Translations under genes and position numbers: made by a program
Notes under the pieces: model-generated
Told to the model about the DNA's origin: nothing
Databases searched by the model: none
The model's input: only the letters and a program-made list of their open reading frames with translations
In this document: positions 7,390-24,890 of the stretch, piece after piece
How positions within the stretch are numbered: position 1 is the first letter of the stretch
Layout: each line of letters opens with the position of its first letter
NCBI RefSeq assembly: GCF_025602895.1
Contig: NW_026516530.1
Coordinates: 1-26,182 of the forward strand
Length of the DNA: 26,182 nucleotides
Reading direction: 5' to 3'
Source: Polychytrium aggregatum
Lineage: Eukaryota > Chytridiomycota > Chytridiomycetes > Polychytriales

Positions 7390-7395
7390 TTTCCC
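7353..7395 (-). promoter_or_regulatory. -1 frameshift signal, R2
   Basis: On the minus strand: GGGAAAC (plus 7389-7395) placed in gag frame as G|GGA|AAC, an 8-nt spacer, then a 7-bp perfect stem CCGGTTC (plus 7374-7380) with GAACCGG (plus 7353-7359). The gag stop TAA lies in the loop directly after the 5' arm. The pol frame is exactly -1 relative to gag. The heptamer is a well-known retroviral slippery type; function here is inferred. Confidence 0.75.
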
Positions 7396-8348
7396 GAACT
7401 GAAGTCTTGCACTTCTCCATCTTCGTAAACGATGGTGCGGATGATCCTCGGGCCGGGAGGTCCAGGGGGCGGTCCGGTAGCTCTGGTAGATCCAAACTTG
7501 ACGGGGCAGTTTCGTACCAAGTGGCCCTTCTTGCCACAGTACAGGCAGAGTCCAAAGCGGCGGCGGCGTTGTTTCTCCTCGGCGGTCAGGGGTCCAGAGA
7601 CGGCAGAGTCCACTTGCATGGGCTCGGAAACAATGTAGGAGGGGTGCGGCGGAGCGAGGACGGACGCGGGAGCGATGGCGGGAACGGCAGCGGAGGCGGA
7701 ACCAAAGGCGAACTGGGAAGACCGGTAGCGGGCAGGCGTGCTTCGGCGCTCTTGACGGCGCTCGCGGATTCGTGCATCGAGCTCGTTACAAAGCTCGATG
7801 TACTCCTCCAGATCTCGTGGCAGAGGGCGAACTCGCGAAAGTTCGTCTCTGACATCATCCGACAAGCCAAGTCGGAAGAACGAGATCTTTGCACCGTCGT
7901 TCCAAGTCGTATCGGCGGCAATACGAAGGAACTCGGATGCATAGACTGCGCACGGGCGGTTGCCCTGAGACAGTGTGGTGATCACTGACTCGGCAGTCCT
8001 GGCCCGATCAGGGTCGTCAAACACTTTGGAAAAGCGTTCTAGGAAATCGCCAAAAGAGTTGAGTCGGGGATCACCCATCTCAAGCATCGGAGTCGCCCAC
8101 TGGAGAGCCGGTCCAGTGAGCAGACTAATGACGAATCCGACCTTAATCGGGTCAGCAGGGAACCGGTGGGGCTGCATTCGTATATACAGTTTGCACTGAT
8201 TTACGAATGCCCGGAACCCTTGCCGGTTACCGTCGTAACGGTCCGGCATCTGCACGCTGTACCCAGCGGCAGGAGCATCGCGAGCTGTCCGGAGCTCGGC
8301 GAGCTCGGCCTCCAAGGCACGGAGGCGGTCCACGAGGGCAGGATCCAT
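7371..8348 (-). CDS. gag: R2 gag
   Basis: A 325-aa capsid/nucleocapsid polyprotein with an ATG start at plus 8346-8348 and a TAA stop at 7371-7373. Residues about 1-25 are a charged helix (R-A-L-E-A-E-L-A-E-L). The middle is a Ty3-type retrotransposon gag domain with conserved aromatic and hydrophobic positions (F-R-A-F-V-N-Q; W-A-T-P-M-L). The CCHC zinc knuckle C-L-Y-C-G-K-K-G-H-L-V-R-N-C is at about 268-281, preceded by the P-M-Q-V-D signature seen before the knuckle in many chromovirus gags. The length is normal and no breaks are visible. Confidence 0.93.
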   Translation of the reverse strand: MDPALVDRLRALEAELAELRTARDAPAAGYSVQMPDRYDGNRQGFRAFVNQCKLYIRMQPHRFPADPIKVGFVISLLTGPALQWATPMLEMGDPRLNSFGDFLERFSKVFDDPDRARTAESVITTLSQGNRPCAVYASEFLRIAADTTWNDGAKISFFRLGLSDDVRDELSRVRPLPRDLEEYIELCNELDARIRERRQERRSTPARYRSSQFAFGSASAAVPAIAPASVLAPPHPSYIVSEPMQVDSAVSGPLTAEEKQRRRRFGLCLYCGKKGHLVRNCPVKFGSTRATGPPPGPPGPRIIRTIVYEDGEVQDFSSGNDQARF

Positions 8349-8372
8349 GGCGGGACTGGGACTGGGACTGGG

Positions 8373-8386
8373 AAAAAAAAAAAAAA
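8373..8386. repeat. 14-base homopolymer in R2 leader
   Basis: Fourteen A on the plus strand (T on the coding strand), 24 bases upstream of the R2 gag ATG, next to three gggact repeats (8353-8371). Such runs are prone to length error in sequencing. Confidence 0.9.
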
Positions 8387-8513
8387 GCGAGGAGGTTCAA
8401 GAACAGGAGAGCGAAGAGGGCTCAGACACAAGTGTGCTTGAGGTTCGGACAGGACTAGGAAAGGGGCGGGGCTAGGAGCGGAAGATACCAAGCAGGTGGT
8501 ATCAGTAGAAGAG

Positions 8514-8525
8514 AGTTCGAACAAA
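8514..8525 (-). other. R2 self-priming primer-binding site
   Basis: One base from the 5' LTR end. The coding strand reads TTTGTTCGAACT, which is the exact complement of AGTTCGAACAAA in the LTR itself (plus 8614-8625; also 2957-2968), roughly 40 bases downstream of the TATA box, where the transcript should begin. This is the arrangement used by Tf1/sushi elements, in which the folded 5' end of the RNA primes its own reverse transcription. No tRNA-like TGG start is present at this site on the coding strand. Confidence 0.7.
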
Positions 8526-8526
8526 G

Positions 8527-8945
8527 TGTAAGGAGTGAACAAGCGCAAGGACGAAGACCAAGTGCTTGGTATGAGCTTTATTAGCTTTTAGCCCCGAACA
8601 CCAAAGAACAAGTTTTGTTCGAACTGGTGTTCAACATAGGCTCAGACATGCAGGGCTATTTATAGACCGGGAGAAGGTCGAGGGGCAAAAGTGGGCGAGA
8701 AGGGTGGAGCATCACAGAGAAGCGAGAAGGGGGTGCGAGAGTGGCTGGTGTGCAAGCGAGAGAGGCTTGGCACAGCCCGGGGACATGTGCCGAGCGGTGG
8801 GGGAGGCAGGAAACCAGTAGACGCGGGTGGCAACGGCGCGTGCTCATGCATGGGGGCAAACAAACACGTGGGGACTCATGATTGGTGCGGAGGGCGAGAG
8901 CATGCGGGACAATCTCATTGGTCCGTTGTGATGCTGGTCATCACA
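8527..8945 (-). repeat. R2 5' LTR
   Basis: A 419-bp promoter LTR of R2. On the coding strand: TATA box TATAAATA (plus 8657-8664), transcript start expected near 8625-8635, self-primer 8614-8625 inside a hairpin region (8596-8632), and poly(A) signal at plus 8577-8582. It matches 2870-3288 with no difference seen. Confidence 0.95.
8596..8632 (-). other. Hairpin around the R2 self-primer
   Basis: The outer arms are gaacacc and ggtgttc, and inside them gaacaa pairs with ttgttc (same in the other LTR at 2939-2975). The self-primer bases form part of this fold, so the RNA could switch between a local hairpin and pairing with the primer-binding site. Confidence 0.6.
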
Positions 8946-8950
8946 CGAGT
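8946..8950 (+). repeat. Target-site duplication of R2, right copy
   Basis: cgagt, the second copy of 2865-2869. Its last base is part of the V codon that resumes the R1 RNase H frame. Confidence 0.95.
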
Positions 8951-10721
8951 GTACCTCCACGGTACCGCCAAGCCCTTCAAGATTGTGACGGACCACCAGT
9001 CACTGCGTTACCTCGACACCAAGAAGAACCTGAGCCGACGCCAAGCGCGATGGATGGAGTTCCTCGCCGAGTACAACTACGAGGTTGTATACCAGAAAGG
9101 CAAACTCAATGTGGTGCCTGACGCACTGTCCCGACGCCCCGACTACCAATTGGCGTCACTGTACGAGTCGACTGTCAGTGTCGACAACACGATGCTGGAT
9201 GTTGTCCGAGACAACATCGCCAACGACAAACAGTTCGGAGAACTGTTCCGAAAGGTGTCTAAGCTCCCCAAGGACGACGAATCATCCGAGTACACAGTGC
9301 GTGATGGCCTGCTCCTCCTGAAGAAGGACAGCCGTGTCTGTGTGCCGGACATTCCGTCGTTGAAGACCAAGTTGCTCCAAGAGGTCCACGACTCGCCCCT
9401 CGCTGGACACTTTGGAGTCGAGAAGACATACGACCGACTGGCCAAAGTCGCATACTGGCCTGGAATGAAGCGCACCGTCGAGAAGTACATCGAGTCCTGC
9501 CATACCTGCAAGATGGTCAAGTCACGCACGACCCGAGAGCAAGGATTGCTGCAACCCCTGCCTGTTCCCGACCGCCCCTGGACCAGCATGTCCATGGATC
9601 TCATCACGCATCTACCGACGACCAAGTTGGACCACGATGCAATCGCTGTCTTTGTCGACAGGTTCAGCAAGATGGCACACTTTGTGCCGTGCCAGACGAC
9701 ATGCTCCGCGCCTGACCTTGCACTGCTGTTCTTCAAGCATGTGTTCAAGCACCACGGCCTCCCAAAGTCCATCGTCAGTGATCGAGACCCCCGATTCACC
9801 TCCTTGTTTTGGACAAGTCTGTTCGACCATCTCGGCACCAAGCTGAACATGTCAACCTCGCACCACCAACAAACGGATGGACAGTCCGAGCGGACGATCC
9901 GCACCCTCGAGCAATACCTGAGGACATACGCCTCGACCAGCCAAGACGACTGGGACATACAGCTGAGTCATGCAGAGTTTGCATACAACACCGCCAAGTC
10001 GAGCACAACTGGCTTGAGCCCCTTTGAGGCGCTCTACGGATTCCAGCCTGATGTTCCCACCTCCTTGACACTGACCGAGTCCACGGCTGGATTGCCTCCC
10101 AAACCAAGTGCCTTTGTCAAAGATCATCAAGTCCGACACAAGATGATCGCCGACGCGCTCACGGATGCGCAACAAGTGATGGCGAAGTACTACGACCGCC
10201 GACACCAGGATGTCTCCTTTGAAGTTGGAGACCTTGTCTACCTGGACGCCGACAACATCAAGGTCCCCGAAGCCCAGTCAAAGAAGTTGTTGCCCAAGTA
10301 CCGAGGACCGTTCAAGATAGCGGCCCGACCCAGTCCCCTCAACTACCTGTTGGACTTGCCACCTGGAAGCAAGCTCCATCCTGTCTTCCATGTGTCCAAG
10401 CTGCGTCGCCACACGACCCGCAGTCCAGCACAGTTCCCCGACGCCGACGAAGGTGTCCCGGACGACGCACCACTGGAAGACGACCTCGGACAATACTATA
10501 CTCAAGAATATGAAGTCGAAAGGATCGTGAGGCACAAGAAAGTGGCTGATGGGTCACTTCGGTTTTATGTCAAGTGGGTTGGTTACCCACACTCGGGCAA
10601 CACATGGCAAACACTGGAGGACTTGTCCCATGCACCCGAGGAGCTGAGTAAATACGGTAAACACCTCGAGGAGCCCCAAATAAAGAGCACACGCAGGGCT
10701 CCTCGCAGGAAGCCTTCTTAA
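8951..10721 (+). pseudogene. pol: R1 copy A pol, C-terminal part (RNase H end, integrase, chromodomain)
   Basis: This continues the pol frame broken at 2869: RNase H end with T-D-H-Q-S-L-R-Y-L and the A-L-S-R-R signature near 9127; integrase zinc domain with H...H...C-H-T-C around 9388-9512; catalytic D in M-D-L-I-T near 9596, D in V-S-D-R-D near 9777, and E in D-G-Q-S-E-R-T near 9880; a GPF module near 10305; and a chromodomain near 10505-10625 (Y-E-V-E-R-I-V, V-K-W-V-G-Y). It ends at TAA 10719-10721. No internal break is seen, so before R2 inserted this pol was coding-competent. Any apparent start inside the R2 LTR upstream is an artefact. Confidence 0.92.
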
Positions 10722-10730
10722 GTGTGGGAG
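10720..10730 (+). other. R1 polypurine tract
   Basis: aagtgtgggag lies directly before the 3' LTR, overlapping the pol stop codon; it is the expected plus-strand primer site. Confidence 0.6.
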
Positions 10731-11039
10731 TGTAGGAGATGGTATCTCCGACGCTGTGCTGCGCGTACTGCGCGTACTGCGCGGCGCAGTGGGTCGTGAC
10801 CTGTGCTGCGCTTTGCGTTTTCACGCACCGCAGGCAGGCCACCGCAGGGTATACCTGCGGGTTGCCCCCGTTCCCCCCGTTTGTCTGGAGTTCGGTTTTA
10901 TCGTGAATAAACGTAAGTGCTCCCCGAGCTCACCCGTCCGCTAGAGTAGCCTAGCACCGCCCTGTTCTGCCCCGTCCTGTCTTGTCTTGTACCCCCTCCC
11001 TCCCCGTCTTGCCCCAACGTCCCAGTAGTGGACGTTACA
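10731..11039 (+). repeat. R1 copy A 3' LTR
   Basis: A 309-bp LTR, TGTAGG...TTACA, matching 20946-21254 with no difference seen. It begins with a small palindrome (ggagat/atctcc), contains tandem gcgcgtact units near 10761-10782, and has an AATAAA signal at 10906-10911. It supplies about the last 47 codons of the open frame that continues the viral fibre gene on the minus strand. Confidence 0.95.
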
Positions 11040-14000
11040 TAACCCTTGGTCGCCGAGTCCGACGACAGGATGGGGTCGGGGACGTTGGTCAGCCGGGTGA
11101 CCGACTTGAGATCCATCACACCACTCACGACACTGAAATCACTGGTCGCCAGCCCGCCCGAGAGCTCGAGTACGTTGCTGGTGTTGGTCAAGGCGATGGT
11201 GTTTGTGGGGCTGGTCGTGTCCTGGATGTGCAAGGGGGATGCCACCACCGAGAGCGTCAGGGGCGATGGACAACTCAAAGTCAATGGCTGGTCAAAGGCC
11301 AGCTGGTTTGCACTGAACTGGATGGTACCCCCCGACGGGGCAATAAAGGACGGGCAGGTGAGCGAAGTGGCAATCGACACAGGGGCACCCGTCAGAGCCA
11401 GCGATGCATTAGCAGGGGTGGTGATGGATGTGACGTTCTGGATGGCGGACGAGTTGATCTCGATGCCGCTCTCGATCACCAGCGGCACATTGCACTGGAC
11501 CGTAGAGCCTCCGGTGCCAGTGGAGAGCTGAGCCCCACCGGAAAAGACAATAGAACTGGGCAGAGAGAGATTGGGGCAGATGGCACGGGCATTGGCAATG
11601 TCAAAGAGAATGGACAGATCGTTGCCGGGGGTAGTGGTGTCGATCCATGCAATCCCCGGATTCGGCGTGCTGGTGATGAGCCGGAGACTCTTGGTCTGGA
11701 TGGAGGTAGACGGGTCAAAGGAGACAAATGTAAAGACGTTGCTCGGGATGGAGAGGGTGTCTGCGGTGATGGTCAGCTCGGAGCCGACGATAACCGAGGT
11801 ATCGACACTGAATGCACCGACCCGAGCCAAGTTCCCGAGACTCAACACATCGCTGCTGGCCGAGAGCACGACACCGCTGGTTCCAAAGATGAGCTGGCCG
11901 CCGACGATCTGCAGGTCTCTGTTGAGCAGCTGCAACCCGACCCCATCCGGTGCAGTGGGTCCCGCTGGATTCCACGAGTTGATGGCCATGAGCTGCCGAC
12001 CAGCGTCAAACCATGGGCCATTGGCATTGATCTTGGAGCCATCGGATGCGAGTAGGAAGTTTGCAGCGAGCGAAGACGACCCTGTGCCTCCATAAGCGAG
12101 TCCGACGGCCTGGCCCTGCCATTTTCCCGCGGTGATGGTGCCGACGGCATCGAGATGGGTGATGGAGGAGACAGAGAGGGTGCCGCCGGAAAGCGTCAGG
12201 CCCTCGCCGGCAAAGGTGTCTGCAACCCGCAGACCACTTGGAGCAGCAATCAGCGACGAATCCTGGACCTGCACCGAGAGCTGCTTGCCGGAAGCGACGA
12301 GACCATTGCCGGCCACAGCCAAGCTGTCCCCCGACGAGCACTGGTGAACGCCCGACGAATCCACCAGCCATGATGTATTCCCATACTGCGTGCCGGACTG
12401 GATGTAGACCAGAGTCTGGTTGGGCAGCGCAGCCGGGTTGTCGACATACATGTTGGTGGAGAGCGTCTGGACGGTCAGGATCTGGCTGGTGGCTGCACAA
12501 AAGATGGTCTGGCCGAGGAGGACGACGACCGAGTCGATGCTAAACTGGACGTAATAGTACTGGTTGGTGTTGGTGTCGAGAGTGGGTGCGGTGGCAATGT
12601 AGTAGTCTGCCGTCTGTCTCGATGCGATCCCGTTGCTGACCCAGTTCTGCAGATACGAGAGCGGCACGGCATCGGTCGGATCGGTTGGGGTCGGCAGGCC
12701 CGTCAGCGTCCCTCCGCCCCCGATGGCCAGTTTCGATCCACTCTGGGTGAGGGTCTGGCCCTGGATGTAGAGAGTGGTGCATCCGAGGGTCTGGGACTGG
12801 ACCGAGTTGGCCGAGACGGCATCGGCAAAGTAGCTCTCGATCTGGACCTTGGGGATATCAAGGGTGCCGTCGTCTCGAGCGGTCCAGATGGTCTGTCCGT
12901 TGCGCACGAATGCGGTGGAATTGGTACTGTCCACCAAAGACGAGTGGGTCATGGCGAGAGTGTCGGTTTGCACCTGCTGGGCCTGGATGGTGCCGCTCAC
13001 AGTCTCGCTACCGGTGACGGTCAGGGTGGCCACTTTGACTTCCTCGGTCTCGAAATACCCGCTGGCAATGGCCCCTATCTGCACGAGCACCCAAGTAGAT
13101 GTGTCGATTGGAGGTGTCAGTGCAGTGACACCGGTCAACCCCCGTCCCGTCAGCACAGTGTTAGCAGTGCCGATGGAGAGGAGCCAGGTCTTTGTACCGC
13201 CCGCATTCTGAACGAGATAGTACAGCTGGGCGGATGGGGGGCTGGTCTTGGTGTAGAGACGATAACCCTCGGTTGGGCTATAAGACCACTGGCCCTCGAC
13301 GGTGATGGAAGTCCAGTTGAGATCGTTGATTTGGTAAAAGCCCGTCGACAGCATCGTTTCAAAGACGGGTGCCTGGAGGGTGCTCACCGCAATCGATGGA
13401 GCCGTGAACGACTCGAGCTGTGGTGCATTCAGCGTGCCGTTGACGGTGACGACGGTGCTGCCAGAGGACGGGTCTGGTGAGATCTCTGCGACGGAGATGG
13501 CTCTGGCGGTGGCATCGTATGCGGGTCCCTGGGCCCAGGAACCACTGGTTCTGCACTGGATGCCATCGAGGAGGGTGGTGGAGCCAGTCCCGCCATACGC
13601 GACGGCCACCGGGGTCGACTCCCAGACACCCTGGGAGATGGTGCCGAGCTGCGAGACATGCGACTGGTTCGAGTCGGTTGCAACCAGGCCGCCCGATATG
13701 TTGAGGATGCCGCGGCCTGGCTGGATGCGATGGGTGCCCGAGAAGAGGACCCACTCGGTGACGCTGCCGGTGACAATGCAGACGTAGGTTTGGTCGTCGT
13801 TGATGGAGTAGACCAAGTTGCCGTTGCCTGTCGACACGAGCGACCCAGTGTCCCAGACACCCATCTGCGAGCCGGAGAGAACGAGCACGCGGCCGGTCGA
13901 AGGAATCGACACCCCGGACGGACCAGCGATAGTGAATTGGACCGAAGCGATGGGGGCAAGCCCGACAGACATTTGGTCGACATATGCCTTGGAGACAGCA

Positions 14001-15232
14001 TCACTCGACGAAGACCACGATATGTTCGTCACTCGGTTGCCGCCCATATCGAGCGTCGCCGTGGGGTTCCATTGGCCCGAGAGCGAGCTGCATTGAAGCG
14101 AGGGAGCATCGATGCGGACGCTGGTTGGGTGGTAGACGACGATCTCGTTGGTGTCGCCCTGAATATACCCGAGACCTGAGGTAAAGTCGATCTGGCTGAA
14201 CGTAGACGAGGAGCCGGAACCTCCGCCTCCACCACCGCCAGAGCCACCGCCGCCACCACCAGACGACGGCCAAGTGGGTTGATTCCGGAAGGTGACATTG
14301 CCGAGGAACTCGATCGAGTCGGTGAATGTGACCGGGCCGGTGAGTTCGGGGCAGGTGATGGAGCCGGTGCATACGAGGCTGCCGTCGTTGTAGATCTGGA
14401 TGCCGACCCCATTGGCATTTTGGACTTGGATGGATGCCGAGTCGCTGGTAAACTTGACACCCCCATAGAGATCGAGCTGGCGCACACTGAGGGTGTCGAG
14501 ATGGACAGCGTTGCCTGCATTGAGATAGAGATCCTGGCCGGACCCGGTGATCTGAGTGCCGGCAGAGACATTGATTCCCGCATATGCCTTGAGGGGGCTG
14601 CCACGGATGCTGATCTGGCCGCCGTCGTCGAGCAAGCTGAGGGTCATACCGCTGTCCAGAAAGACCTGGCTGCACTGCACAACGCCGGCCTGCACGGTTC
14701 CAGACTGGCTTTGCAAGAAGAGGGTCCCGCTGTTGTTGTAGATGCCGGTCAGGCCGGTCGAGTCAAAATCGATCCCCTGGAGGGTGTGCAAGGGCTGAGA
14801 GAAGGTCGTCTCGAAACCAATGGTGTTGGAAGCGCTCATGACGCCATTGAAGATCTGCATGGTGCCGTTCAAGGCCGAGTTGGGATCCATGATGGCCACG
14901 AGATTCTCGCTGCCCTTGATGCCGATATAGAAGAGCTGGGTCGAGTCGTCGTAAGTGAGCACGGCGGGAGCAAGCGATCCTCGGTTGACCATGAGGCCGC
15001 CGCGAGTCGATGGGTTGGAGGCATCGTTGACTTCGACATACGCGTCGGTGATGGTGGTGATGGTGCTCTCGACGGTGTTGATGTTGCCGAGGACCTCGAA
15101 ATTGCCATTGACTCTGAGATCGCCGGCGAGCTGGAGGCTGCTGAAGGACACATTGGACTGCGGGGTGAGGGGCTGGAGCAGATTCTGGTCGATTCGTCGG
15201 ACATACTGGGCAAGAGAGCGAACGTCCTGCAT
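11040..15232 (-). CDS. Giant tail-fibre-like surface protein, C-terminus cut by R1 LTR
   Basis: Likely a virion fibre or adhesin. From the first ATG (plus 15230-15232) about 1397 viral codons remain; the open frame then runs into the R1 LTR and stops near 10898. The N-terminus is a short helix (M-Q-D-V-R-S-L-A-Q-Y-V) followed by beta-repeat sequence of the type L-R-V-N-G-N-F-E-V-L-G-N-I-N-T, well known in phage fibres. A Gly/Ser-rich hinge lies at plus 14218-14275. Two modules follow, each with a D-A-x-x-x-x-Y-(V/L) motif, then G-T-I-x-x-G-x-W, then A-Y-G-G-T-G-S (near plus 13590 and 12090). A third module begins with S-A-T-K-G-Y-V exactly where the LTR cuts. The family occurs in phages and in giant viruses. 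The LTR insertion and the loss of its 3' end are seen directly; the fibre role is by family. Confidence 0.8.
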
Positions 15233-15346
15233 GACCACCGCTGTCTTTTGGATGGCGGTGGGCAAAAAAAGGACATTGCAGCTGGCGCAGGAATCATGCA
15301 AATATTTTGTATGATTGAGAGTATCATCGAAACCAAAGTTTGGATA
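15233..15346. promoter_or_regulatory. Divergent promoter region between fibre and coiled-coil genes
   Basis: A 114-bp gap between opposed ATGs. It holds a run of seven A (15264-15270; T on the fibre strand, 31 nt before its ATG) and the palindrome AAATATTT at 15300-15307. AAATATTT is a promoter motif reported for marseilleviruses. Two extra in-frame ATGs for the plus gene (15296 and 15311) lie here, so the gap could be shorter. Confidence 0.5.
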
Positions 15347-17700
15347 ATGAGCGACTTGGATGACCAAATGGGTATGAGCTCAGGAAGTAGCGATGATTCG
15401 ATGTCGGAAGTATCCCCCTTTTATGATGCTGATGCTGCTATGGATGATGTTTTCGATCGATTTTTGGATGAAGAGCCACCCGCAAAAATCGAGATATCGC
15501 CCAGTATTGTGAAACACACTCCAGATGTATCACGAATTGCGGATCCTACTGAAGTCGATTCAGACACTCCGCGTAGGTGGGTCCGAGATATAATTGGTAT
15601 TGTCACGTCTGTTGATAGCTACTCGCATAATATCAAAGGAAAAGGCGAAGCACTGATAAAGAGTATCACATCCGAAACATTTGACCACATCACCAAAATG
15701 ACAAAAGACATAGAACATGATAAAACGATGCTTAATAATATTGAGAGCGGTGATGTTGAAGATTTATACGGTGGTACAATTCAGAATCTGAGAGGAGCCC
15801 TCGATAGTTATCTTGAATACCTGACACGGGAGTATAGTGCAATGCAGGACATCGTTGCAACGACCAAAAAATTGATCGACAAGTATGATGACCAGTCGTA
15901 CCTCGGTACATTGAACGCGCTTAAGATAGAAGTCGAAGTTGGGATTGGACTAATCTACGAAAGAACAGCTTTAAAGACCACGCCACTCTTGAGTGAAGCC
16001 GAAGCAAAGTCGTATGCCCAGGCGAGGATGAATTTTTTTTCATTCCTTGAACGTCTCAAGGATGACTACAGAAATGACATCAGGTTCATTAATAAATATG
16101 GAAGGGTCAGGATGGAAATGGTGGAACGACACCTCGGTGAGATGACCCTGGCCATCAAGAGGGCGTGGAATCAATATACTCTTCATGTGACTCTTATCGA
16201 TGCTGAACGTATGGGATTGAATGAACTTCGCGATACATTGAAAGATACACTCGCCGAAAAAGCACACATCGAGGATAGATATGAGGTACTCCTGTTGGAA
16301 GATCGCAAACGGAAAGAACGTGCAGCCAAAAAGAAGAAACGTGCTACTGAGGCAGACGATGACAAGAAGACTGAAGATGAAGATGAAAAACTAATTCCAG
16401 ATATTGAAATTGCATTAAAAGCACTTGATATTCCTAGGAAAGAATGGCCTGACTTTAATAACACAAGCAATGAAGAATATGAAGACTTCATCCAGCAAAG
16501 GGTTGTTAAAATTGTCGAAGATGAACGCAATAAAGTCGAACAAGCAGCCGTCGCTCATTTTGGAAAAAGTATTGCCGAAAAGGAACAATTGATACAGAAG
16601 CAGCATGAACTACTCACTCACCAGACGGTTGTAATGGATCAACTGAACGCACAGCTGGAAGCCAAAGCTGTCGAGTTAGAAGGAATGGTGGCAGGGAGAG
16701 ACGCGGGAGTTGAACAATCGAGTGAGAGTTTTGCCCAACAATTAGCAGCAAAAGACAGTGAAATTCAAAATTTGTCAGGGCAGCTCATGGCCCGACATGC
16801 GGTTGTAGCCACCCAGACTCACAATATAGAGAAACTGAACAACGAGAAAGAAACAATGACAACTAAGCTGACTGAGAAGGAATATGCGGTTAATCAATTG
16901 AGACAGAATTTGGAACAACATACGGAAGCCCTTACACAGGCTCGAGCAACCAATCTAGATCTGACCCAACAATTGAACACAAATATGGATGAAATTCAAG
17001 CTTTGAAAACCCGGCTCACAGAACGAGAAGGAGATGTAGCCACACAAACTCGTTCGATAGAGGAATTGGAAACCCAAAACCACAACTTGACTGAGGCATC
17101 GGCTTGTAAAGATCGAGAAATCTACAAGCTCCATGTATTGATTGGGAGTGGCAGTGATAGCGACATATACACTAGCCCTCCACGGTCATATACACTTCTT
17201 GAGCTTGAGAGGATGATGAAACACATCATGCAAGGCTATGAATTCAAAGACATTAATGATTCAACACCTCCATACAAGGCTTTGAATGATGCATTGGATA
17301 AAATTCAGAAGCTTCTGAATGCCACCGCGGCTGGTGAAACACACACGGTACCGGACATTAGTGGCACAACATCAATATCCGAAGATCCGATCGGTTTATT
17401 GGTAGCCAATATCGAAGCTATTATTAAAGAACGCATGATGGCACAGACGTTAAAATCAGCAGCACCGGATATTGAGGACTACGTCAAAGAGAAACTTGAA
17501 ACTATACCGTGGGTCGAGCGATCGAGACCTACATGGCAAAGTATACCTCTGACATGGACGCCATTTCCGCAACCAACAATGGGAAATTAGACGACGTCTT
17601 CAGCCCAATGCTCACACGAATGAAGAGCAAAACCAGTGATCTCACTCAACTCTACAATGTCTTCACCACGAGCGGATTCAGTTTCGTGCCCCAGACGTGA
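15347..17700 (+). CDS. Large acidic/coiled-coil protein, one frame change near 17511
   Basis: Not recognised by family. Starting at M-S-D-L-D-D (15347; in-frame ATGs at 15296 and 15311 are alternatives) the first frame gives 747 aa to TAG at 17588-17590. The N-terminus is Ser/Asp-rich; residues about 90-290 look alpha-helical; a strongly basic patch (K-K-K-K-R) followed by an acidic one lies near 320-345; residues about 390-600 are heptad-like coiled coil rich in Q, E and L. From about 17515 the protein-like sequence moves to the -1 frame and runs to TGA 17698-17700, suggesting one base missing near the G run at 17511-17513 (mutation or sequencing error). Its codons are clearly more AT-rich than those of the fibre gene. 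A structural or scaffold role is possible but unsupported. Confidence 0.7.
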
Positions 17701-17998
17701 ACATGGTATTTCTTGCGGTCCAGTTGTCCTCATAACCCTGGATTCTGTTACGCACAACAGCAACGCTTTTCTCCAATGACTTGTAGATTGATATCAACCC
17801 AGTTTTCAAATATGATACATACCAGTCATACCCAGTTATCATCTCAGTAAGAGCATCGCTTATGACTTGAATCTTTGAAATGTCGACGGAACATGTTGTT
17901 GCTGGTGGTTTCGTATAGGCCGACTCGATAAAGGTTGCCAAATTCGATTCAAACACCCGAAATGCGGCGTCAATTGCATTTTTAACAGAATCGTCCAT
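17678..17998 (-). CDS. 106-aa protein with W-x-A-R-N-x-M-F tail
   Basis: ATG at plus 17996-17998, stop at 17678. Unknown family, predominantly helical. Its last 45 residues align without gaps to the end of the 75-aa protein encoded at 18644-18871: over 36 positions about a third are identical, including L, Y, S-L and the closing W-x-A-R-N-x-M-F. It ends 23 bases inside the -1-frame end of the coiled-coil gene (convergent overlap). Seven T on its strand (plus 18028-18034) lie 29 nt before the ATG and just after the stop of the upstream metallopeptidase gene. Confidence 0.72.
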   Translation of the reverse strand: MDDSVKNAIDAAFRVFESNLATFIESAYTKPPATTCSVDISKIQVISDALTEMITGYDWYVSYLKTGLISIYKSLEKSVAVVRNRIQGYEDNWTARNTMFTSGARN

Positions 17999-18040
17999 GA
18001 TCAGCCTACACTTTCCAGAAAATCAAGAAAAAAATGACAA

Positions 18041-18604
18041 TCAATCCAACCCTCCCAAATCCAAACCACAGTAATTGGAGCTGTTCTTATCGGTGTGGTA
18101 CATACCCAGACGATGCGCCTCGCGCTTGAGGAACCGGAAGTTTTCCAAAAACTCCCCGTTGTGACCCTCGGAAGCACTTGCCACATGGGCCAGCTCGTGG
18201 AGCATGACGTACATTAGCAGATTCGGGGGTATCACTTCCCCGGTCTGGCGATCGCGAATGCACATGGAGATCAGCGTGCCCTTGTTCACCGTATACGACG
18301 TGAACTCGGCATTCCGCGTCTCCTGCATCCTTGTCGGGCTAAACCGAGCCCGGAGTCTGTCGAGAGCGATGCGCTCCTTATCGGTGGTCGGGTTGCAGTG
18401 GTTGATGATATGGCTAGCATCAACTCCCAGTTTCCCGAGTATCCGAAAGCTCTCTGCATTGACGTCGTCATTTTTGGATTCATTGACGCAGATGGCTTCC
18501 TTGCCGGGTAAGCACACCTGCTGACGATATCTCGATCGGAAACACACGCACACGGCGACAATGAGGAGTACTGTCAAAAAGCCGATCCAGTTTTGTAAAG
18601 ACAT
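18041..18604 (-). CDS. Membrane-anchored HExxH metallopeptidase (WLM/SprT-like)
   Basis: 187 aa from ATG at plus 18602-18604 to TGA at 18041. Residues 6-22 are a hydrophobic segment, so the protein is probably anchored in a membrane with the enzyme domain after it. The zinc site is H-E-L-A-H at 136-140 with a third likely ligand H148 in S-E-G-H-N-G-E-F, the H-E-x-x-H...G-H-(N/D)-x-x-F pattern of WLM and SprT-like peptidases. Four Cys between residues 18 and 40 could form a redox or metal site. Related small peptidases are frequent in giant viruses; the substrate is unknown. Adjacent genes on the same strand lie about 40 bp away on each side, suggesting a co-oriented cluster of three. Confidence 0.82.
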   Translation of the reverse strand: MSLQNWIGFLTVLLIVAVCVCFRSRYRQQVCLPGKEAICVNESKNDDVNAESFRILGKLGVDASHIINHCNPTTDKERIALDRLRARFSPTRMQETRNAEFTSYTVNKGTLISMCIRDRQTGEVIPPNLLMYVMLHELAHVASASEGHNGEFLENFRFLKREAHRLGMYHTDKNSSNYCGLDLGGLD

Positions 18605-18643
18605 GGTGAGCGTCTTTCATTCAGCCCTGAAAAAAATCGATTT

Positions 18644-18871
18644 TCACTTGGGAGGCTGGAACATGGCATTGCGTGCCTCCCATCCCTTCAGGTACTCGGT
18701 ATCCTGTTTCAAAACATGCTCCTTGACGTCTTTGAGGGATTGATAGTACTCCAGCAGGTTGTCTCGGATGGTTTTGATGAGCTCTTGCTGAATCTTGATG
18801 GTGTTTTCGAGCTCATCCATCGTAGTCTTCTCGGTCTCTGGAGTGACGGGTGCGGACGATGGCTGATCCAT
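18644..18871 (-). CDS. 75-aa protein with W-x-A-R-N-x-M-F tail
   Basis: First in-strand ATG at plus 18869-18871, TGA at 18644-18646. It opens with a Pro/Thr-rich stretch (S-S-A-P-V-T-P) and continues as one amphipathic, heptad-like helix, ending G-W-E-A-R-N-A-M-F and five further residues. It is a diverged paralogue of the 106-aa protein at 17678-17998. A run of eight T on its strand (plus 18896-18903) precedes the ATG by 24 nt. Unknown family; possibly a small virion or scaffold subunit, by inference only. Confidence 0.72.
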   Translation of the reverse strand: MDQPSSAPVTPETEKTTMDELENTIKIQQELIKTIRDNLLEYYQSLKDVKEHVLKQDTEYLKGWEARNAMFQPPK

Positions 18872-18942
18872 TCTAGGGCTACGTTTGTCGGGAAGAAAAA
18901 AAAGGAACTGCGTTGAATGCACCCCCTATATTCTCTCGGTCA
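18872..18942. promoter_or_regulatory. Divergent promoter region
   Basis: A 71-bp gap between the 75-aa gene (minus) and the 220-aa gene (plus). It contains the A8 run at 18896-18903 and a TATA-like ctatatt about 20 nt before the plus ATG. The assignment rests on position only. Confidence 0.45.
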
Positions 18943-19605
18943 ATGAGCAGAAGCCTTGTCATGTCGGCCAAGGAGATTTTCAAGCGTTTTATTGAGTATC
19001 TCAAAGAGAACGGCAGCGAAGCCCAGCGCACGACCGGCCGTGCTCTCTCCAATACATTCGACACCATCTTGGGACATTTGAGTGAGCCGATCTTTGTGGA
19101 TATGTGCGGGGACGTCAACTCGTCGATTCTGCGGGATGTGTCCTTCTTTGAAGCAGCCCGTGACCCCAAGGGACGGGCTATCCTCGAGGAGATGCAGGGG
19201 TTCTGCAAGGGAGTCGATATCTTCCTGAGCGCCGAGCCACCAGAGGAGCTCAACCAGCTCGCAACGCAAAACGAAATGATGGCCAATATGACCAATGCCC
19301 TGGGGAGCTTTGTGTGCAGCCCCAACTTCAGCAATCTCTCGCAGCGCATCAACGACCTGCTCACTGAGGAAGACACCCGCGAGCTGAGTACAATCATCGA
19401 TATGGTCCAACCGGACACCAAGTCAACCCCCGATCTGCAGCCCCAAGACATCAACGCCATGTTCAGCAAGCTCACATCCGCATTCAGCCAGAACCCGTCG
19501 GTCCTCGAGCACTCCTTCCAGCGCATCCGTGGTATACTCGAGCGCGACCCAGAGATTGACGGGATTGTGCGATCCTTTGCCACCATGGCTCATGGCAATC
19601 GATAG
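18943..19605 (+). CDS. Unknown 220-aa helical protein
   Basis: ATG at 18943-18945 (a second in-frame ATG is at 18961), TAG at 19603-19605. I do not recognise the family. The sequence is mostly helical, with an N-terminal basic/hydrophobic helix (A-K-E-I-F-K-R-F-I-E-Y-L) and regularly spaced Phe and Leu in later segments (F-S-N-L-S-Q-R-I-N; F-S-K-L-T-S-A-F). No membrane segment, signal peptide or metal motif is seen. It starts 71 bp from the divergent 75-aa gene and overlaps the kinase stop by 16 bp (convergent). The frame is clean throughout, unlike both larger neighbours, which supports a real gene. Confidence 0.75.
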   Translation: MSRSLVMSAKEIFKRFIEYLKENGSEAQRTTGRALSNTFDTILGHLSEPIFVDMCGDVNSSILRDVSFFEAARDPKGRAILEEMQGFCKGVDIFLSAEPPEELNQLATQNEMMANMTNALGSFVCSPNFSNLSQRINDLLTEEDTRELSTIIDMVQPDTKSTPDLQPQDINAMFSKLTSAFSQNPSVLEHSFQRIRGILERDPEIDGIVRSFATMAHGNR

Positions 19606-20802
19606 ATATCAAAGAAGCTGTGTCTCAAGAGCTGCTCCGGTGTCCACATGATGTCTCCAAAGAGGTCGAGTGCCTCTTTCCGGATATGACCGTGGTAGAG
19701 ATAGGCGTTGGTCACCCCGCAGCTGCTGCACTGGCTGCACTGGCTGGACCCACTGCACGACGACACCTCGCTGAAGGCATCATCGCCACTGTCATTGTCG
19801 TCGAGTAGGTCTGCCTCTTCCGGTGTGTATTCTGCTTCCGAGACCTCGTCGTCGGTCTTGTAAAAGTCTGCGTCGGAGAATGCATCTTCGTCCGTGACAT
19901 CGCTGTAAACGTCGTCACTGTCGGCGTCGTTGGCGCTGTCGTTATCCTCGGCCGCATCGGTTCGGTCGATGGTCAGCTGATCCAGCTGCTCCCTCGATGG
20001 TTTTCGAGGAGGCATCAACTCAGACGGGTACAGGCTGAAGACAAAGTCTTGGATGACCTGCGGCATATCGCTGAGCTCGCCGAGCGAGTTGATGAAGAAG
20101 TGGAGATCCAGGACGCGGATCGAACTGGCCGACCGGGGCGACTCCATCGAGTCGCTGGTTGAATGGGTTTTTCCAGCCGAGTGAATGGAGCTCCGTGAAC
20201 TCAAAATCCCACAGCTTGGGCATGAGGCCGCCGGGTGGATCACAAAAGAAGCGAAAGTCACCATGGGTGTAAGTGATGCCCTTCGAATCGGTCGTGTCCA
20301 GCAGGATGTTCCCATAATGCAGATCGTAGTGGATGAACTTGTATTTCTCCTGGAGAACGTAGAGCGACCAGACGACGGCAAAGATGATATAGCGCCACTC
20401 GGCCTCTCCGATCTCGTGGTGGTTGTCCTCGAGACTGCCATTCTCGATGAATTCGCTCTGCAGCACCTGGCATTTGTGGTAGATGACGTTTTTGAGGAAC
20501 TTGAGTGGGAAGCAGGTGAGGGCCTTGCTGCTGTTCTTGACGACATGATCCGAGATATATCGGGTGATATGCGGGGTGCATTTGCTCTGGGTGAGCTCCT
20601 TGAGCACCCTGGCCTCCATCAGAGCTGGGTGCTTGTCGTCCAGCGGATACTCGGTCTGCAATGGAATCACTTTCACGCCGTAGAGCACGCTGTCCTTGGA
20701 CACAGCGCATGGGAACCCTTTGACGTCGTCGATATCGACCGAATGCAAGAGCTCGCATTCATCGCCGCCAAAGTGCTTTTGGGTGCAGTCAATCACAAAC
20801 AT
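19590..20802 (-). CDS. Divergent protein kinase, frame change near 20170
   Basis: ATG at plus 20800-20802, final stop at 19590-19592, about 404 codons in all. It carries Y-G-V-K (probable ATP lysine K44), a helix-C glutamate near 63, the catalytic loop H-Y-D-L-H-Y-G-N at 158-165 and D-F-E at 199-201 in place of D-F-G. This fits the atypical Ser/Thr kinases common in giant viruses. After about residue 213 the protein-like frame shifts by one; one extra base in the T5 run at 20168-20172 would explain it. The second frame continues with kinase C-lobe sequence, then an unusual Asp/Glu/Ser-rich insert of about 80 residues and a Cys/Ser-rich patch, and closes with L-L-R-H-S-F-F, typical of a kinase C-lobe end. 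It may be intact if the indel is a sequencing error. Confidence 0.78.
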
Positions 20803-20945
20803 GATGCTCGTGGGCTAGCCGAGGACGGAGAAATCAAAGTCGTCGAAAAAGCGCACAAAAATTTTCTCATACCTCTCGCAAGCTGCGCGTGTGGCCACTG
20901 AACGAAACCAAACCCGAACGCAATGGACGGATCGAGCCCAGTTTC
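20803..20945. other. Upstream flank of kinase gene, cut by R1 copy B
   Basis: 143 bp between the kinase ATG and the R1 copy B LTR. It contains A-rich pieces (five A at 20846-20850; acaaaaatttt near 20856), which would be T/A-rich promoter-like sequence for the kinase. No ORF is supported. The last five bases, gtttc, are the candidate target duplication of R1 copy B. Confidence 0.5.
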
Positions 20946-21254
20946 TGTAGGAGATGGTATCTCCGACGCTGTGCTGCGCGTACTGCGCGTACTGCGCGGC
21001 GCAGTGGGTCGTGACCTGTGCTGCGCTTTGCGTTTTCACGCACCGCAGGCAGGCCACCGCAGGGTATACCTGCGGGTTGCCCCCGTTCCCCCCGTTTGTC
21101 TGGAGTTCGGTTTTATCGTGAATAAACGTAAGTGCTCCCCGAGCTCACCCGTCCGCTAGAGTAGCCTAGCACCGCCCTGTTCTGCCCCGTCCTGTCTTGT
21201 CTTGTACCCCCTCCCTCCCCGTCTTGCCCCAACGTCCCAGTAGTGGACGTTACA
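20946..21254 (+). repeat. R1 copy B 5' LTR
   Basis: 309 bp, TGTAGG...TTACA, matching 10731-11039. AATAAA is at 21121-21126. A consensus-like 5' splice site (GTAAGT) follows at 21128-21133. Confidence 0.95.
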
Positions 21255-21266
21255 TGGTAGCATCGG
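21255..21266 (+). other. R1 primer-binding site, tRNA type
   Basis: tggtagcatcgg directly abuts the 5' LTR. It starts with TGG, as expected for pairing with a tRNA CCA end, and the first seven bases are those used by elements primed by initiator tRNA-Met in yeast. No complement was found in the LTR, so this is not self-priming. The tRNA itself is not identified. Confidence 0.65.
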
Positions 21267-21376
21267 AAATCCTCGTCTTGTTTTCGTCCTGTTTGTCCTC
21301 TTTCTAGATCCTCAAGCTGGATCCCGCCTCTCTTGCCGACCGACTCTCCTCTCTGTCCCTGGAGCCTGCCCCTGCC

Positions 21377-22198
21377 ATGAGCAACCCCCGCCCACTTCCG
21401 GAAGCCTTCCTCAAGACCTTCCGTGCCCCAGTGTTTACTGGGAAGAGCCGCTCCTCCTCGGTGGAGGACTGGCTGCAGCAACTCGAGGACTACCTCGATG
21501 CTGCCCAAGTCGCCCCCACCCACCACATCGTCGCCGCCAAGCTCTGCTTAAAGGACCAGGCGTACCGTTGGTACCGCCGCCAAGGGTTCGACGAGCAGAG
21601 CGAAGGTGTGTTTGACGACTTCAAGGACCGCCTCCGTCGCCGCTTCGGCAGCCCCAATGCTGAACTCATTGCCCGTGACAAGCTATACTCTCTCGTGCAG
21701 CGTGGTTCTGTGACCCGCTACATCGAGGAGTTTGAAGACCTCTCCTCCCAGATTGAGGAGCTGGGCTCTGCTGATGCGATGTACCTCTTCCAGAAGGGCC
21801 TCAAGCCCAAGATCAGAGAGTACATCGCCAGCAACCCTGATGCCCGCAAGTCCCTGGACGTGATGATGGACGTTGCCGAGAACCTCGACAACGTCCAGTA
21901 CCATGGCCGCCAGTTCTACCCGCAGCTGGCAGGCGGCCATCGGTCTCATCACGTCCCAGCCCGTCCGCCTCGCCCGGCCCCGCCCGCAAGACCCATGCCT
22001 GAGCCCATGGACGTTGACGTCAACGCCATGGAGGCTCGTGGCCCTCCCCGCTCCCGGTTCCAGCAAGCTGCCACTGTCTCCCCCAAGGACAGACAGAAGC
22101 AGGAGGACCTCCGCCATGGTTCCTGCTTCTTCTGTCACCGACCGGGACACCAGGCCAAGGAGTGCCCCATGAAGTCGGGAAACGGCCGACCCTACTAG
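21377..22198 (+). CDS. gag: R1 copy B gag, intact
   Basis: 273 aa from ATG (context gccATGa) to TAG at 22196-22198. Residues about 30-140 are a Ty3-type gag/capsid domain (W-L-Q-Q-L-E-D-Y-L; Y-R-W-Y; F-D-D-F-K-D-R-L-R-R-R-F; Y-I-E-E-F). Then come a Pro/Arg-rich linker, a P-M-D-V-D signature and one CCHC knuckle at 250-263 (C-F-F-C-H-R-P-G-H...C). It is expected to form the particle and bind element RNA. It serves as the reference against which copy A's indels are read. A -1 frameshift signal overlaps its end. Confidence 0.93.
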   Translation: MSNPRPLPEAFLKTFRAPVFTGKSRSSSVEDWLQQLEDYLDAAQVAPTHHIVAAKLCLKDQAYRWYRRQGFDEQSEGVFDDFKDRLRRRFGSPNAELIARDKLYSLVQRGSVTRYIEEFEDLSSQIEELGSADAMYLFQKGLKPKIREYIASNPDARKSLDVMMDVAENLDNVQYHGRQFYPQLAGGHRSHHVPARPPRPAPPARPMPEPMDVDVNAMEARGPPRSRFQQAATVSPKDRQKQEDLRHGSCFFCHRPGHQAKECPMKSGNGRPY

Positions 22199-22220
22199 GT
22201 GGCTCTGGAGCCCTAGTAGG
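22177..22220 (+). promoter_or_regulatory. -1 frameshift signal, R1 copy B
   Basis: The slippery heptamer GGGAAAC (22177-22183) sits in gag frame as G|GGA|AAC. A 7-nt spacer follows, then a perfect 9-bp stem, cctactagg (22191-22199) with cctagtagg (22212-22220), and a 12-nt loop that can pair further (gct/agc). The gag stop is inside the 5' arm. The downstream pol frame is exactly -1 to gag and open. Confidence 0.8.
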
Positions 22221-22765
22221 AGACCAACGCCGTGGATTGCTCAATGCAGTCCACGCGTCTCCAGAGGAAGTTCACCTCGCCCCCTCCCCCGAAGGAGAAA
22301 CAAACCAAGTGTTGTGCGTCGTGCGAGAGGTGCATGGTGGCGCAAGCCGCCTGCCTCTCCACGAACGTGAAGAGAAAACCAAAATTGAAAACCAAAACAA
22401 AAAAGAAAATCAAGAACCCTTGAGGGACAGGACCGCCTGTGCCCTCACCCCTGTCAAGTCGTGTGTGTCGGATGCTTCCGACATGTGTCCGCAAGCCGTG
22501 GACGTCGTGTGCAATGGCGTGCTGACGCCGCAGGCCCCCGCAATGGCCGAACCCTATCCAAAATGTCCGAGTGGCCGTGATGAAGCCAACCAAGACCAAG
22601 TGTCGCCCGTTCCCCCAAGTCAAGTCATGGTGCAGGAGGCTGTGCAGGAGGACCATGAAGAGTCCCTGCTGTACCTCCCTGCCACCGTCCAAGGTCACAC
22701 CGTCCGAATGATGGTGGACTCTGGAGCAAGCTGCAACTTTGTCAGCAGACGCTTGCTCCAGGAGC
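22184..22765 (+). pseudogene. pol: R1 copy B pol, N-terminal fragment (linker and protease start)
   Basis: In the -1 frame after the slippery site an open, charged linker (K/E/N-rich near 22370-22420) leads to the aspartic protease start V-D-S-G-A-S near 22711-22730. The frame is intact to 22765, where R3 interrupts it; stray LTR codons then give a stop at 22798-22800. Reverse transcriptase and later domains of this copy would lie beyond R3. Confidence 0.85.
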
Positions 22766-23579
22766 TGTTAGGGATAGCTTCTGCTTGTTCTCCACTTTGA
22801 CTGCACACTTGGCTGTTCTTTTGCCTTTCTGTTTGTTTGTGTGTAGCTTTGCAGTTCCCCTCCAATTTTCCGCCTTTTGCCTGCCATTTCCGCTCCTTCC
22901 GCACTTCCGTTTCCCCGCGCTGCTCCGCTTCCTTTGTCTTCTTCGCACGCGCCGGTTTGTTTGTGCACGCGCCTTGCTGCGATTGGTTGCAATTCGGCTG
23001 TCATGAACACCCTCTGCCTTTGCCCTCTTCCTTCCTTTGCCTTTGCCCTTTCCTTTCTGTTTGCCTGCCTTAGCGCTTTCCCTTCCTTCTGTTTGTTTGT
23101 TTCCCGCGCTGTGCTGCCTTGTTGTCTTCCCGCCAGCACGCGCGCTGTCTGTGTTCCGTTCCCGCTTCCTTGCTGTTGGTCGTGGGTTACGCCCACGACG
23201 CCGCCTCGACGCCGCCTGACGCCTTGGCGCCGCCATGCCGCCGCCACTGACGCCCGCTGACTCACGGATCCCGAGTCACGGCCGCCACCTGCTTCGCTCG
23301 CTGCTTCGCCCTCCCCGCCGCTGCTTCGCTCCTGCCCCCTCGCTCTGCAACGTCGATCCTTGGCGCTCGCATAAATAGCCCTCCGACCAGCCTCTGTCTT
23401 TTGCCTTCGTCTTGCCACTTTGTATTTTTAGTATCCTAAGCCTTGGATCTAGAATAAAACTTTGGCTTCACACTTGACACTCTGTGTCCCAGTCCAGTCC
23501 CCGCTCCTCTCCCTACGTTCGAGTCTTGCATTAGGACTCTTGCGCGCTTCCCTGCTTGCCCCGTTGTCCAGTCTTGACA
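22766..23579 (+). repeat. R3 5' LTR
   Basis: The left boundary is exact from the break in R1. The right boundary is inferred from a CA end (TTGACA) just before the primer-binding site. It contains ataaatag at 23371-23378 as TATA box and AATAAA at 23453-23458, giving a long pyrimidine-rich U3 of about 630 bp. Otherwise 22766-23651 has no supported gene. The second LTR is off-window, so the end is provisional. Confidence 0.75.
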
Positions 23580-23581
23580 CT

Positions 23582-23590
23582 TGGCAAGAC
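23582..23590 (+). other. R3 primer-binding site, possibly self-priming
   Basis: tggcaagac lies two bases after the inferred LTR end. Its exact complement gtcttgcca occurs in the LTR at 23409-23417, 38 bases from the TATA start, the same spacing as the R2 self-primer. It also begins TGG, so a tRNA primer cannot be excluded; the match is only 9 bases. Confidence 0.5.
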
Positions 23591-23651
23591 CTTCAACAAC
23601 CCCCCACTTGCCCAGCTTTTGTCCCCGTTCCCTTCGCTATCTCTTTTACCA

Positions 23652-24890
23652 ATGGCTTCCCCTTCTGGCCTTTCCGAGCCCGAGCTCCAGGCCATCCGTG
23701 CGGTCATTATCCAGTCCGCCGAGAACGCCCGTTCTCTCCAGGACTTTTCCAAGTTCCTCCACGATCAGGATGATGCGCTCAACCGCATCACCGATCGTAT
23801 GGACCAGGTCCTGGCTCGCCGTGAAGAGGATGTCCGCCAAGTTGTCGCCGCCAGTGTCCAGGAGGCCCTCCGCAGCTACCAGGCCCAGCTACCTCCTCCA
23901 GTTCCTGCTCCCGCTCCGATCCGTCGCGCAGGTCGCCCCTACTTCGGCGTACCTGACGACGTCGATGATCCTGCCCAAGACCCCGAGGATCACTCTGCTG
24001 GTCGCAACTCTGCCACCAGGCAGATAGGTCCTCCCGACCGCTTCTCTGGTAAGGACCCGAGCCGCTGCAATGCCTTCCTCTCGCATTGCAGACTGGCCTT
24101 CGTGTCCAACCCTCCCCTCTTCCAGACTGAAAGGGATAAGGTGTTTTACGCCTTATCCTATCTCGATGGTACTGCTGCAGACTACATGCAGCCGTACATC
24201 GATCAGTTGGAGAGAGACCCCGAGTGCTCTCCCCCTGCCATCCGTGACTTTGCCGGTTTCTCCGAGTGGCTCCGTGCTGCCTTTGGCCAGGTCCAGCCCA
24301 CCATCGCCGCTGCTCGCGAGATGGTCAGGCTTTACCAAGTCACCTCCGCCGCCGCCTATGCCGCCGAGTACCGCCGCCAAGCCGTCCACCTCGTCACTTG
24401 GTCCCAAGACCCTCTCATGTTCCACTTCGAGAGTGGACTCAAGCCCTCGGTTCAAGATGAACTCTCCCGCCGCTCCTTCGACAACCTCGAAGATCTCATG
24501 CAAGCGGCGATCGCCATCGACAACCGCCAGGAGGACCAACGCTCCCGCCGTCCCAACCACCGCTCCGCTCCTGCTCCTGCTCCTGCTCGTCCGGCTCCTC
24601 TCCCTTTCCGTCCGGCTCCTCGTCCCTTCGCTCCTGCTCCTCCTCCTCGCCCCGCTCAAGCCTTCAACGTTCCCCAGCCCATGGACCTCAGCCAGGCTTC
24701 CGCTCGCAGGCTGACCGCCGAGGACAAGGCCGCCCTCCGTGCTGCTAATCGTTGCTTTTATTGCAAGCAGGAAGGGCACATTGCCCCTCGCTGCCCCAAT
24801 AAGGCATCCTCCCGCTTGGCTGCCATCGATGCTTCTTTGGCTGTCGTTGATGTGAATAAACTTGACGACCAGGAAAACTTCTCTGCCTAG
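23652..24890 (+). CDS. gag: R3 gag
   Basis: 412 aa from ATG at 23652 (context accaATGG) to TAG at 24888-24890. An upstream open stretch in the same frame lies in LTR and leader and is not part of the gene. There is an N-terminal helical region (about 1-75), a Pro-rich linker, a Ty3-type gag domain at about 130-290 (F-S-G; A-F-L-S-H-C; W-L-R-A-A-F; Y-A-A-E-Y-R-R), a Pro/Ala-rich tract built of ctcctgctcctg-type repeats, a P-M-D-L-S signature, and a CCHC knuckle at 368-381 (C-F-Y-C-K-Q-E-G-H...C). No break is seen. Confidence 0.92.

Follow-up and report, generated by a model that had tools for sequence, protein, structure and literature searches.

Endogenous nucleocytoviruses have already been described in fungi (PMC5294986, PMC9894930 and PMC10640383, in the portions accessible to us), and according to the accessible text of one of these papers, from 2023, fungi had at that time no known double-stranded DNA virus (PMC10640383). 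A preprint by Myers et al. on the giant viruses of zoosporic fungi, the 'Mycodnaviridae', is cited in PMC12993054, whose accessible part adds that these viruses could use a lysogenic cycle. Our literature search returned no giant-virus account for Polychytrium aggregatum; the zoosporic-fungus preprint may include it. Here we analyse a 26,182-bp stretch from this chytrid, termed the window, which is the entire contig C255 of an assembly of 64.7 Mb and 418 contigs. Positions 11040–20945 form an island of seven tightly packed open-frame genes between two copies of a retrotransposon, R1, which a first-pass annotation had taken for part of an endogenised giant virus. Our analysis supports that view: very probably, the island is part of a nucleocytovirus genome that was endogenised in Polychytrium aggregatum and cut by recent retrotransposons.

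As first noted, none of the seven island genes is a viral hallmark gene. The suggested search for the major capsid protein (MCP), DNA polymerase B (PolB), the A32-type ATPase and VLTF3 located all four in the same assembly, on other contigs. A nucleocytovirus MCP is present at three places, on C5, C63 (91,312 bp) and C326 (E = 3.6e-56), and in none of 14 control genomes. The C63 protein matches both double jelly-roll families in Pfam, PF16903 and PF04451 (6.3e-57 and 2.9e-51), and the best solved-structure matches, 8h2i (334 bits) and 3kk5 (288 bits), are to what we take to be capsid proteins of PBCV-1. At all three places the MCP gene adjoins a divergent RNase III gene, and both frames, of 415 and 299 aa respectively, are open in every copy. 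The A32-type ATPase (308 aa; 27.4 bits against a cut-off of 22.8; 2.9e-6) and a VLTF3-like protein (432 aa; 1e-46; 0 of 14 controls) are encoded by a divergent gene pair on C96, in the vicinity of an R1 gag. Of 18 polymerase matches, two, on C189 and C5, are intronless PolB frames (992 and 995 aa) in which exonuclease and polymerase domains were recognised, the remainder being mostly fragmented; the absence of introns and the neighbouring genes suggest that these two may be polymerases of viral type. The presence of these hallmark genes in the same genome makes a giant-virus origin of the island the most likely. A search of a viral contig collection was not used: the MCP alone found nothing there, and an alignment of 18 MCPs found two loci with short partial matches.

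The island is also tied to a host contig. A 1.1-kb stretch around its gene for a WLM-type peptidase is present in three copies, on C255 (26 kb), C278 (24 kb) and C2 (1,068,768 bp), as is the fibre gene, and the kinase gene is present in two. On C2 the island lies at ∼100–112 kb and a host-type gene, in split frames, at 500–508 kb (NAD_binding_4, 1.3e-52); by way of C2, the island is thus an instance of viral genes in a host contig, as a giant endogenous viral element is defined. The window taken alone, a short contig ending inside retrotransposons at both sides, might raise suspicion of contamination or of a chimeric contig, which the first-pass annotation had named as a possible refutation. 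The evidence points the opposite way, and we regard such an artefact as very improbable: the island recurs on C278 and on a 1.07-Mb contig carrying a host gene, which speaks against a chimera, the adjoining R1 is found on at least 14 contigs of the assembly, and public records list MCP and WLM proteins under Polychytrium aggregatum.

The layout of the island is as compact as had been reported, with intergenic gaps of 39–143 bp (from gene coordinates), a 16-bp overlap between the convergent 220 aa and kinase frames, and a coding share of 95% (9409 of 9905 bases, the split kinase being counted through). WLM and Haspin_kinase are the two Pfam families that score above cut-off in the island (E-values in Table 1). 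The small HExxH peptidase of the first reading is accordingly of WLM type; the atypical kinase is haspin-like, with the qualification that its reading frame is split in the window by a single frame change near 20.02–20.13 kb, the C2 copy being one open frame of 403 aa. WLM proteins, haspin-like kinases and coiled-coil proteins occur in eukaryotes too, and these seven genes could on that account be ordinary host genes or part of a host transposon. We find this hard to credit in view of the open frames, the high coding share and the phage-type fibre; furthermore, a search with the WLM protein returned, among 88 word-sharing candidates scored, its own-genome record and one further match at E ≤ 1e-3, and no retrotransposon domain was detected within the island by Pfam.

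Table 1. Features of the window, with coordinates counted from its first base (LTR, long terminal repeat; ORF, open reading frame; RT, reverse transcriptase)
Feature	Position	Strand	Remarks
R1, Ty3-type chromovirus, interrupted by R2	1..11039	+	3' LTR 10731-11039; 5' part past contig end
R2, second Ty3-type chromovirus inside R1	2870..8946	-	Identical LTRs 2870-3289, 8527-8946
Phage-type fibre gene, 3' part severed by R1	11040..15232	-	ATG 15232; ORF open into R1
T7 tract (A7 on + strand) 5' of fibre ATG	15264..15270	-	Promoter-like shared tract
Coiled-coil protein, 747 aa	15347..17590	+	C-terminal half hypervariable among copies
Small protein, 106 aa	17678..17998	-	ORF; T7 tract 29 nt upstream
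WLM-type HExxH metallopeptidase, 187 aa	18041..18604	-	PF08325 4.5e-7; homologues P0121, P0122
Small protein, 75 aa	18644..18871	-	ORF; T8 tract 24 nt upstream
220 aa protein, no known family	18943..19605	+	ORF
Haspin-like kinase, acidic C-terminus	19590..20802	-	PF12330 1.5e-6; C2 copy 3.5e-6
Second R1 copy	20946..22765	+	5' LTR 20946-21254, then gag
Third LTR element, Ty3-like, nested in right R1	22766..26182	+	Retroviral-type protease by Pfam, RT start by eye; cut by contig end

As to the smaller island genes, the public gene model BJ171DRAFT_597244 (P0121) treats pieces of the 75 aa, WLM and 106 aa genes as exons of a single protein, in the region of window 17678–18871 and its C2 copy. The 106 aa and 75 aa proteins share, by eye, a C-terminal W-x-A-R-N-x-M-F motif and are perhaps paralogues. 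A single-sequence structure model of the 220 aa protein, all helix with a mean pLDDT of 46.5, was of low confidence and was rejected.

In the window the fibre frame runs open into the R1 LTR, from which it had been deduced that viral DNA was there before R1 inserted. C2 bears this out, having the same fibre site without R1, with the gene continuing for ∼2.2 kb, and on C278 a different R1 insertion lies inside the fibre, near window position 13,125, with a 5-bp target duplication, GTGAC. As its C2 copy lacks R1 at this site and its C278 copy is cut at another, the fibre gene was in place before R1. The assignment of the fibre to a phage or giant-virus type drew its support from further along the gene. 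In searches with E limits of 0.01 and 0.1, its continuation on C2 matched phrog_2647 (head decoration; 4.6e-31), a protein of cyanophage PSS2 (41%, 3e-21) and 297 of 50,697 phage records (E 0.01). The window part alone found no homologue outside its own genome in Pfam, PHROG (E 0.01), protein and phage tblastn searches, the last covering all 50,697 records; nevertheless, residues 843–1051 of this part are a diverged repeat of the C2 continuation (28%, 1.5e-8). The phage-type label is right, mainly on evidence beyond the window, because the continuation matches phage proteins and the window part holds this repeat. Matches of the window part to solved structures were weak (best E 0.013, mainly around a glycine-rich stretch), and the same glycine-rich stretch accounts for short DNA matches to 14 phage records.

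Comparison of the copies revealed differences mainly at synonymous sites. Between the window and C2 we counted 20 synonymous and 4 nonsynonymous differences (ratio of nonsynonymous to synonymous rates, dN/dS, 0.06; Fisher 1.2e-9), and between the window and C278 22 and 11 (0.16; 2.8e-7); these counts exclude the C-terminal half of the coiled-coil gene and the kinase C-terminus, and those for C278 also most of the 220 aa and kinase genes, which are cut off by its R1. For the fibre against C278 the figures are 20 and 11 when 19 codons before the ATG are included, and 19 and 7 in the other count. Pairs of MCP, RNase III and PolB genes together gave 12 and 7 (dN/dS 0.17; 1.7e-4), rising to 32 and 18 (0.18) with the C278 fibre added; PolB alone gave 6 and 6. 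With the coiled-coil C-terminus excluded, dN/dS thus ranges from 0.06 to 0.18 and is similarly low in the island and hallmark groups. Since the differences are mainly synonymous, the copies have evolved apart under selection, the simplest reading being that they did so as viruses, prior to integration.

The strong synonymous bias, like the MCP and RNase III frames that stay open in three copies, would also be expected if the viral DNA were a persistent, selected resident, latent or extrachromosomal, of which the assembly mixes strains. This explanation overlaps with endogenisation, and two further points are in keeping with it: single-base indels may be assembly errors, copies of transposable elements varying by gaps without mismatch, and fungal Mycodnaviridae could use a lysogenic cycle, according to the accessible part of PMC12993054. 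We nevertheless consider it unlikely, as the 1.07-Mb C2 contig carries a host gene, R1 has inserted into the fibre gene, and an LTR element sits inside the C63 copy of DUF5901, which is whole on C5.

The coiled-coil gene stands apart. Between the window and C278 its first 285 codons contain 2 differences, while the remainder has a dS of 0.36 and a dN of 0.28 with both frames open; on C2 the gene lies in two frames and is, by eye, window-like in one stretch and C278-like in the next. We read this variation as the probable result of strains exchanging a variable cassette.

A further feature common to the island and the hallmark genes is a tract of six to nine T residues on the coding strand (T6–T9), which precedes the start codon of many of them. 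It was first spotted on visual inspection of 24 listed entries; the count then covered 7 island genes and 25 other viral-block genes, misses included. A tract of at least T6 within 70 nt of the ATG was found in 4 of the 7 and 12 of the 25, respectively, as compared with 0.3% of random 70-nt stretches in DNA rich in transposable elements and 0.7–3.4% in the island and C96 at large; at approximately the highest background, binomial probabilities are 4e-5 (island) and 6e-12 (other genes). One positive is a doubtful gene (a 213 aa frame on C5), and the R1 LTR forms part of the upstream stretch counted for D5 and PolB. Six list entries fell outside the count (the 172 aa and 835 aa proteins of C2, a 118 aa protein, a Fanzor-like protein and a 195 aa protein twice); the Fanzor-like gene alone among them has T6, and their inclusion would give 13 of 31. 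The tract occurs before one partner of the pairs fibre/coiled-coil, 75 aa/220 aa and A32/VLTF3, and before both of MCP/RNase III. As it thus precedes members of divergent pairs, a role as terminator of the preceding gene is insufficient to explain it, and we infer that the tract may be a promoter element. A second string, GATATTTGGAG, is shared upstream of one C2 gene and DUF5901 (L010:9100, L024:784, L048:1891) and may be another promoter motif; with three loci, two being copies of each other, the examples are too few for the claim to be upheld.

The retrotransposons bear on both the age and the reliability of these comparisons. R1 has protease, RT, RNase H, integrase zinc-binding and chromodomain matches above Pfam cut-offs, its integrase core (rve, 29.2 bits) falling below the cut-off of 32.6. 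With its LTRs and the 5-bp target duplication at the C278 fibre insertion, it is a Ty3-type chromovirus, in agreement with the initial view that the host carries such elements. The two R1 LTRs that flank the island are identical, and R1 without the nested R2 is present on C2. A genome-wide LTR search (699 first-look candidates, 40 scored) reported 41 matches on 14 contigs, of which 40 are 100% and one 99% identical, which suggests a very recent burst of R1. The idea that R1 is a virus-specific invader was not supported, its matches being spread over at least 14 contigs. Copies of transposable elements across the assembly differ by gaps, with few or no mismatches; for this reason frameshifts were rejected as proof of decay, and single-base indels may be assembly errors, among them the kinase frame change of the window and those of the C2 fibre. 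The right-hand R1 with its nested third element (window 20946–26182) is common to the window and C2 and shows 0 mismatches in ∼5.2 kb, for which the island's synonymous rate would predict ∼58.

Several observations weigh against the proposed origin of the island. The mismatch-free right flank beside an island that differs does not fit; to account for it, one must assume that the flank recombined or that the assembly was routed through identical repeats. The A32 and PolB families were also detected in 2 and 5 of the 14 control genomes, respectively, five of the seven island genes match no Pfam family above cut-off, and in the protein search with the window part of the fibre none of 7997 scored candidates reached E 1e-3. 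The T-tract is missing before 3 of the 7 island genes and 13 of the 25 other viral-block genes. Finally, whole-genome searches for MCP, A32, VLTF3 and PolB gave no match on C255, C278 or C2. The first-pass annotation had named the lack of a hallmark gene within tens of kilobases as a refutation; for these four families this lack is seen on the 1.07-Mb C2, whereas C255 and C278, of 26 and 24 kb, are too short to judge it by. Because no contig joins the island to the hallmark genes, the tie between them rests on shared features.

The last of these findings, and the 13 viral-block genes without a T-tract, would suit an island whose source was not the virus that gave MCP, A32 and PolB but another large DNA virus or element, with at least two lineages endogenised. 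We judge this to be quite unlikely. The T-tract is found in both groups, their synonymous divergence and dN/dS are similar, and on C2 the fibre and a DUF5832 gene are 12 kb apart, a Ty3-like element lying between them; DUF5832, presumably a mainly viral family of the nucleocytoplasmic large DNA virus type, is present at 4 places in the genome and in 0 of 14 control genomes. Island and hallmark blocks are, moreover, alike in being compact and made of open frames. An origin of the island and hallmark genes from one virus is the likelier.

If the island is such a fragment, related viral genomes would have reached the nuclear genome in repeated entries or as a mixed population, with copies already ∼1–1.5% diverged at synonymous sites under purifying selection before transposable elements inserted. 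A recent burst of identical Ty3-type elements would then have split the fibre gene, at a site that varies from copy to copy. During a free viral life the fibre might have mediated attachment, while the WLM peptidase and the kinase might have acted on the host or in maturation of the particle and the T-tract might have served as promoter; these functions, the promoter role and the order of events are proposals. A bolder scenario, to which we give limited credence, is that several strains of a single fungal giant virus are long-term residents of P. aggregatum under selection, latent and occasionally active, with a T-tract promoter, a phage-type fibre and exchange of the hypervariable coiled-coil cassette, and that the chromovirus burst is now disabling them.

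Further genes were noted on contigs with hallmark genes. On C5, PolB is followed downstream by a short protein, which by eye resembles the Erv1 thiol oxidase and has no Pfam match, a glutaredoxin-like protein and a C962R-type primase domain (AEP_C962R, 4.6e-14), the frame of which extends past the piece analysed; a papain-type peptidase and the intact DUF5901 gene are also on this contig. The element that splits DUF5901 on C63 is Ty3-like by eye. The viral block of C96 includes a GH18 chitinase with a CBM5/12 domain (L047:8493-9653), plausibly a tool against the chitin wall of the host. An open frame of ∼900 aa for an RNA polymerase large subunit is present on C96 and C24, and three further types of this subunit are found on C22/C375, C301 and C68. 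As C22 and C375 score equally, parts of the assembly are suggested to be present twice, and copy numbers may include haplotypes. In two viral blocks a transposase-like gene (mariner/IS630 type by eye) adjoins a TnpB/Fanzor-like gene, on C63 (L018:2990 to L025:3073) and C96 (L047:4773-7735); the C63 TnpB/Fanzor-like gene has a Cas12f1-like TNB domain.

A tree of MCPs was built by a quick method with midpoint rooting from 112 of the best 120 of 7992 scored matches, chosen by length. Eight fungal-named MCPs, their identity judged from the names (Polychytrium, two Quaeritorhiza, two Blyttiomyces, Catenaria and two Allomyces), fall on one side of 37 rows with a support of 99, the other 29 rows there being unnamed, and Polychytrium groups with Quaeritorhiza (support 94). 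This is consistent with a virus lineage that uses zoosporic fungal hosts. Beyond fungi, the P. aggregatum MCP is likest in structure matches to PBCV-1. Chloroviruses are not known to have an RNA polymerase large subunit; in contrast, the P. aggregatum contig with A32 and VLTF3 holds one, distinct from the three other types in the genome.

P. aggregatum thus offers a chytrid nucleocytovirus with a capsid gene and several comparable copies, and with features open to test: a tract that may act as promoter, a fibre gene of phage type interrupted by R1, a viral-block chitinase, and differences between copies in which selection is recorded. In the accessible parts of the literature examined on fungal nucleocytoviruses, the T-tract, selection between copies and the cassette were not met. 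The 1.5-Mb endogenous region of Rhizophagus irregularis resembles the present case in placing nucleocytovirus DNA in a fungal chromosome (PMC10640383). As far as the accessible text describes it, that region is asfarvirus-related, continuous, with fewer transposable-element signals, and lacks MCP, A32 and D5 (PMC10640383), whereas P. aggregatum has MCP and A32, viral pieces on several contigs, and retrotransposons inside them. Gonapodya prolifera and Allomyces macrogynus, chytrid and blastoclad genomes, also have viral genes in small islands; the accessible part of that report gives a DNA polymerase in G. prolifera and a D5 primase-helicase in both or in A. macrogynus (PMC5294986). P. aggregatum goes beyond these in having MCP, A32 and VLTF3 as well, some in multiple copies. 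The resemblance extends to the 'Mycodnaviridae', likewise nucleocytovirus genes in zoosporic fungi with possible lysogeny, as far as PMC12993054 was accessible. Giant viruses of zoosporic fungi have thus already been reported, and the P. aggregatum virus adds to them.

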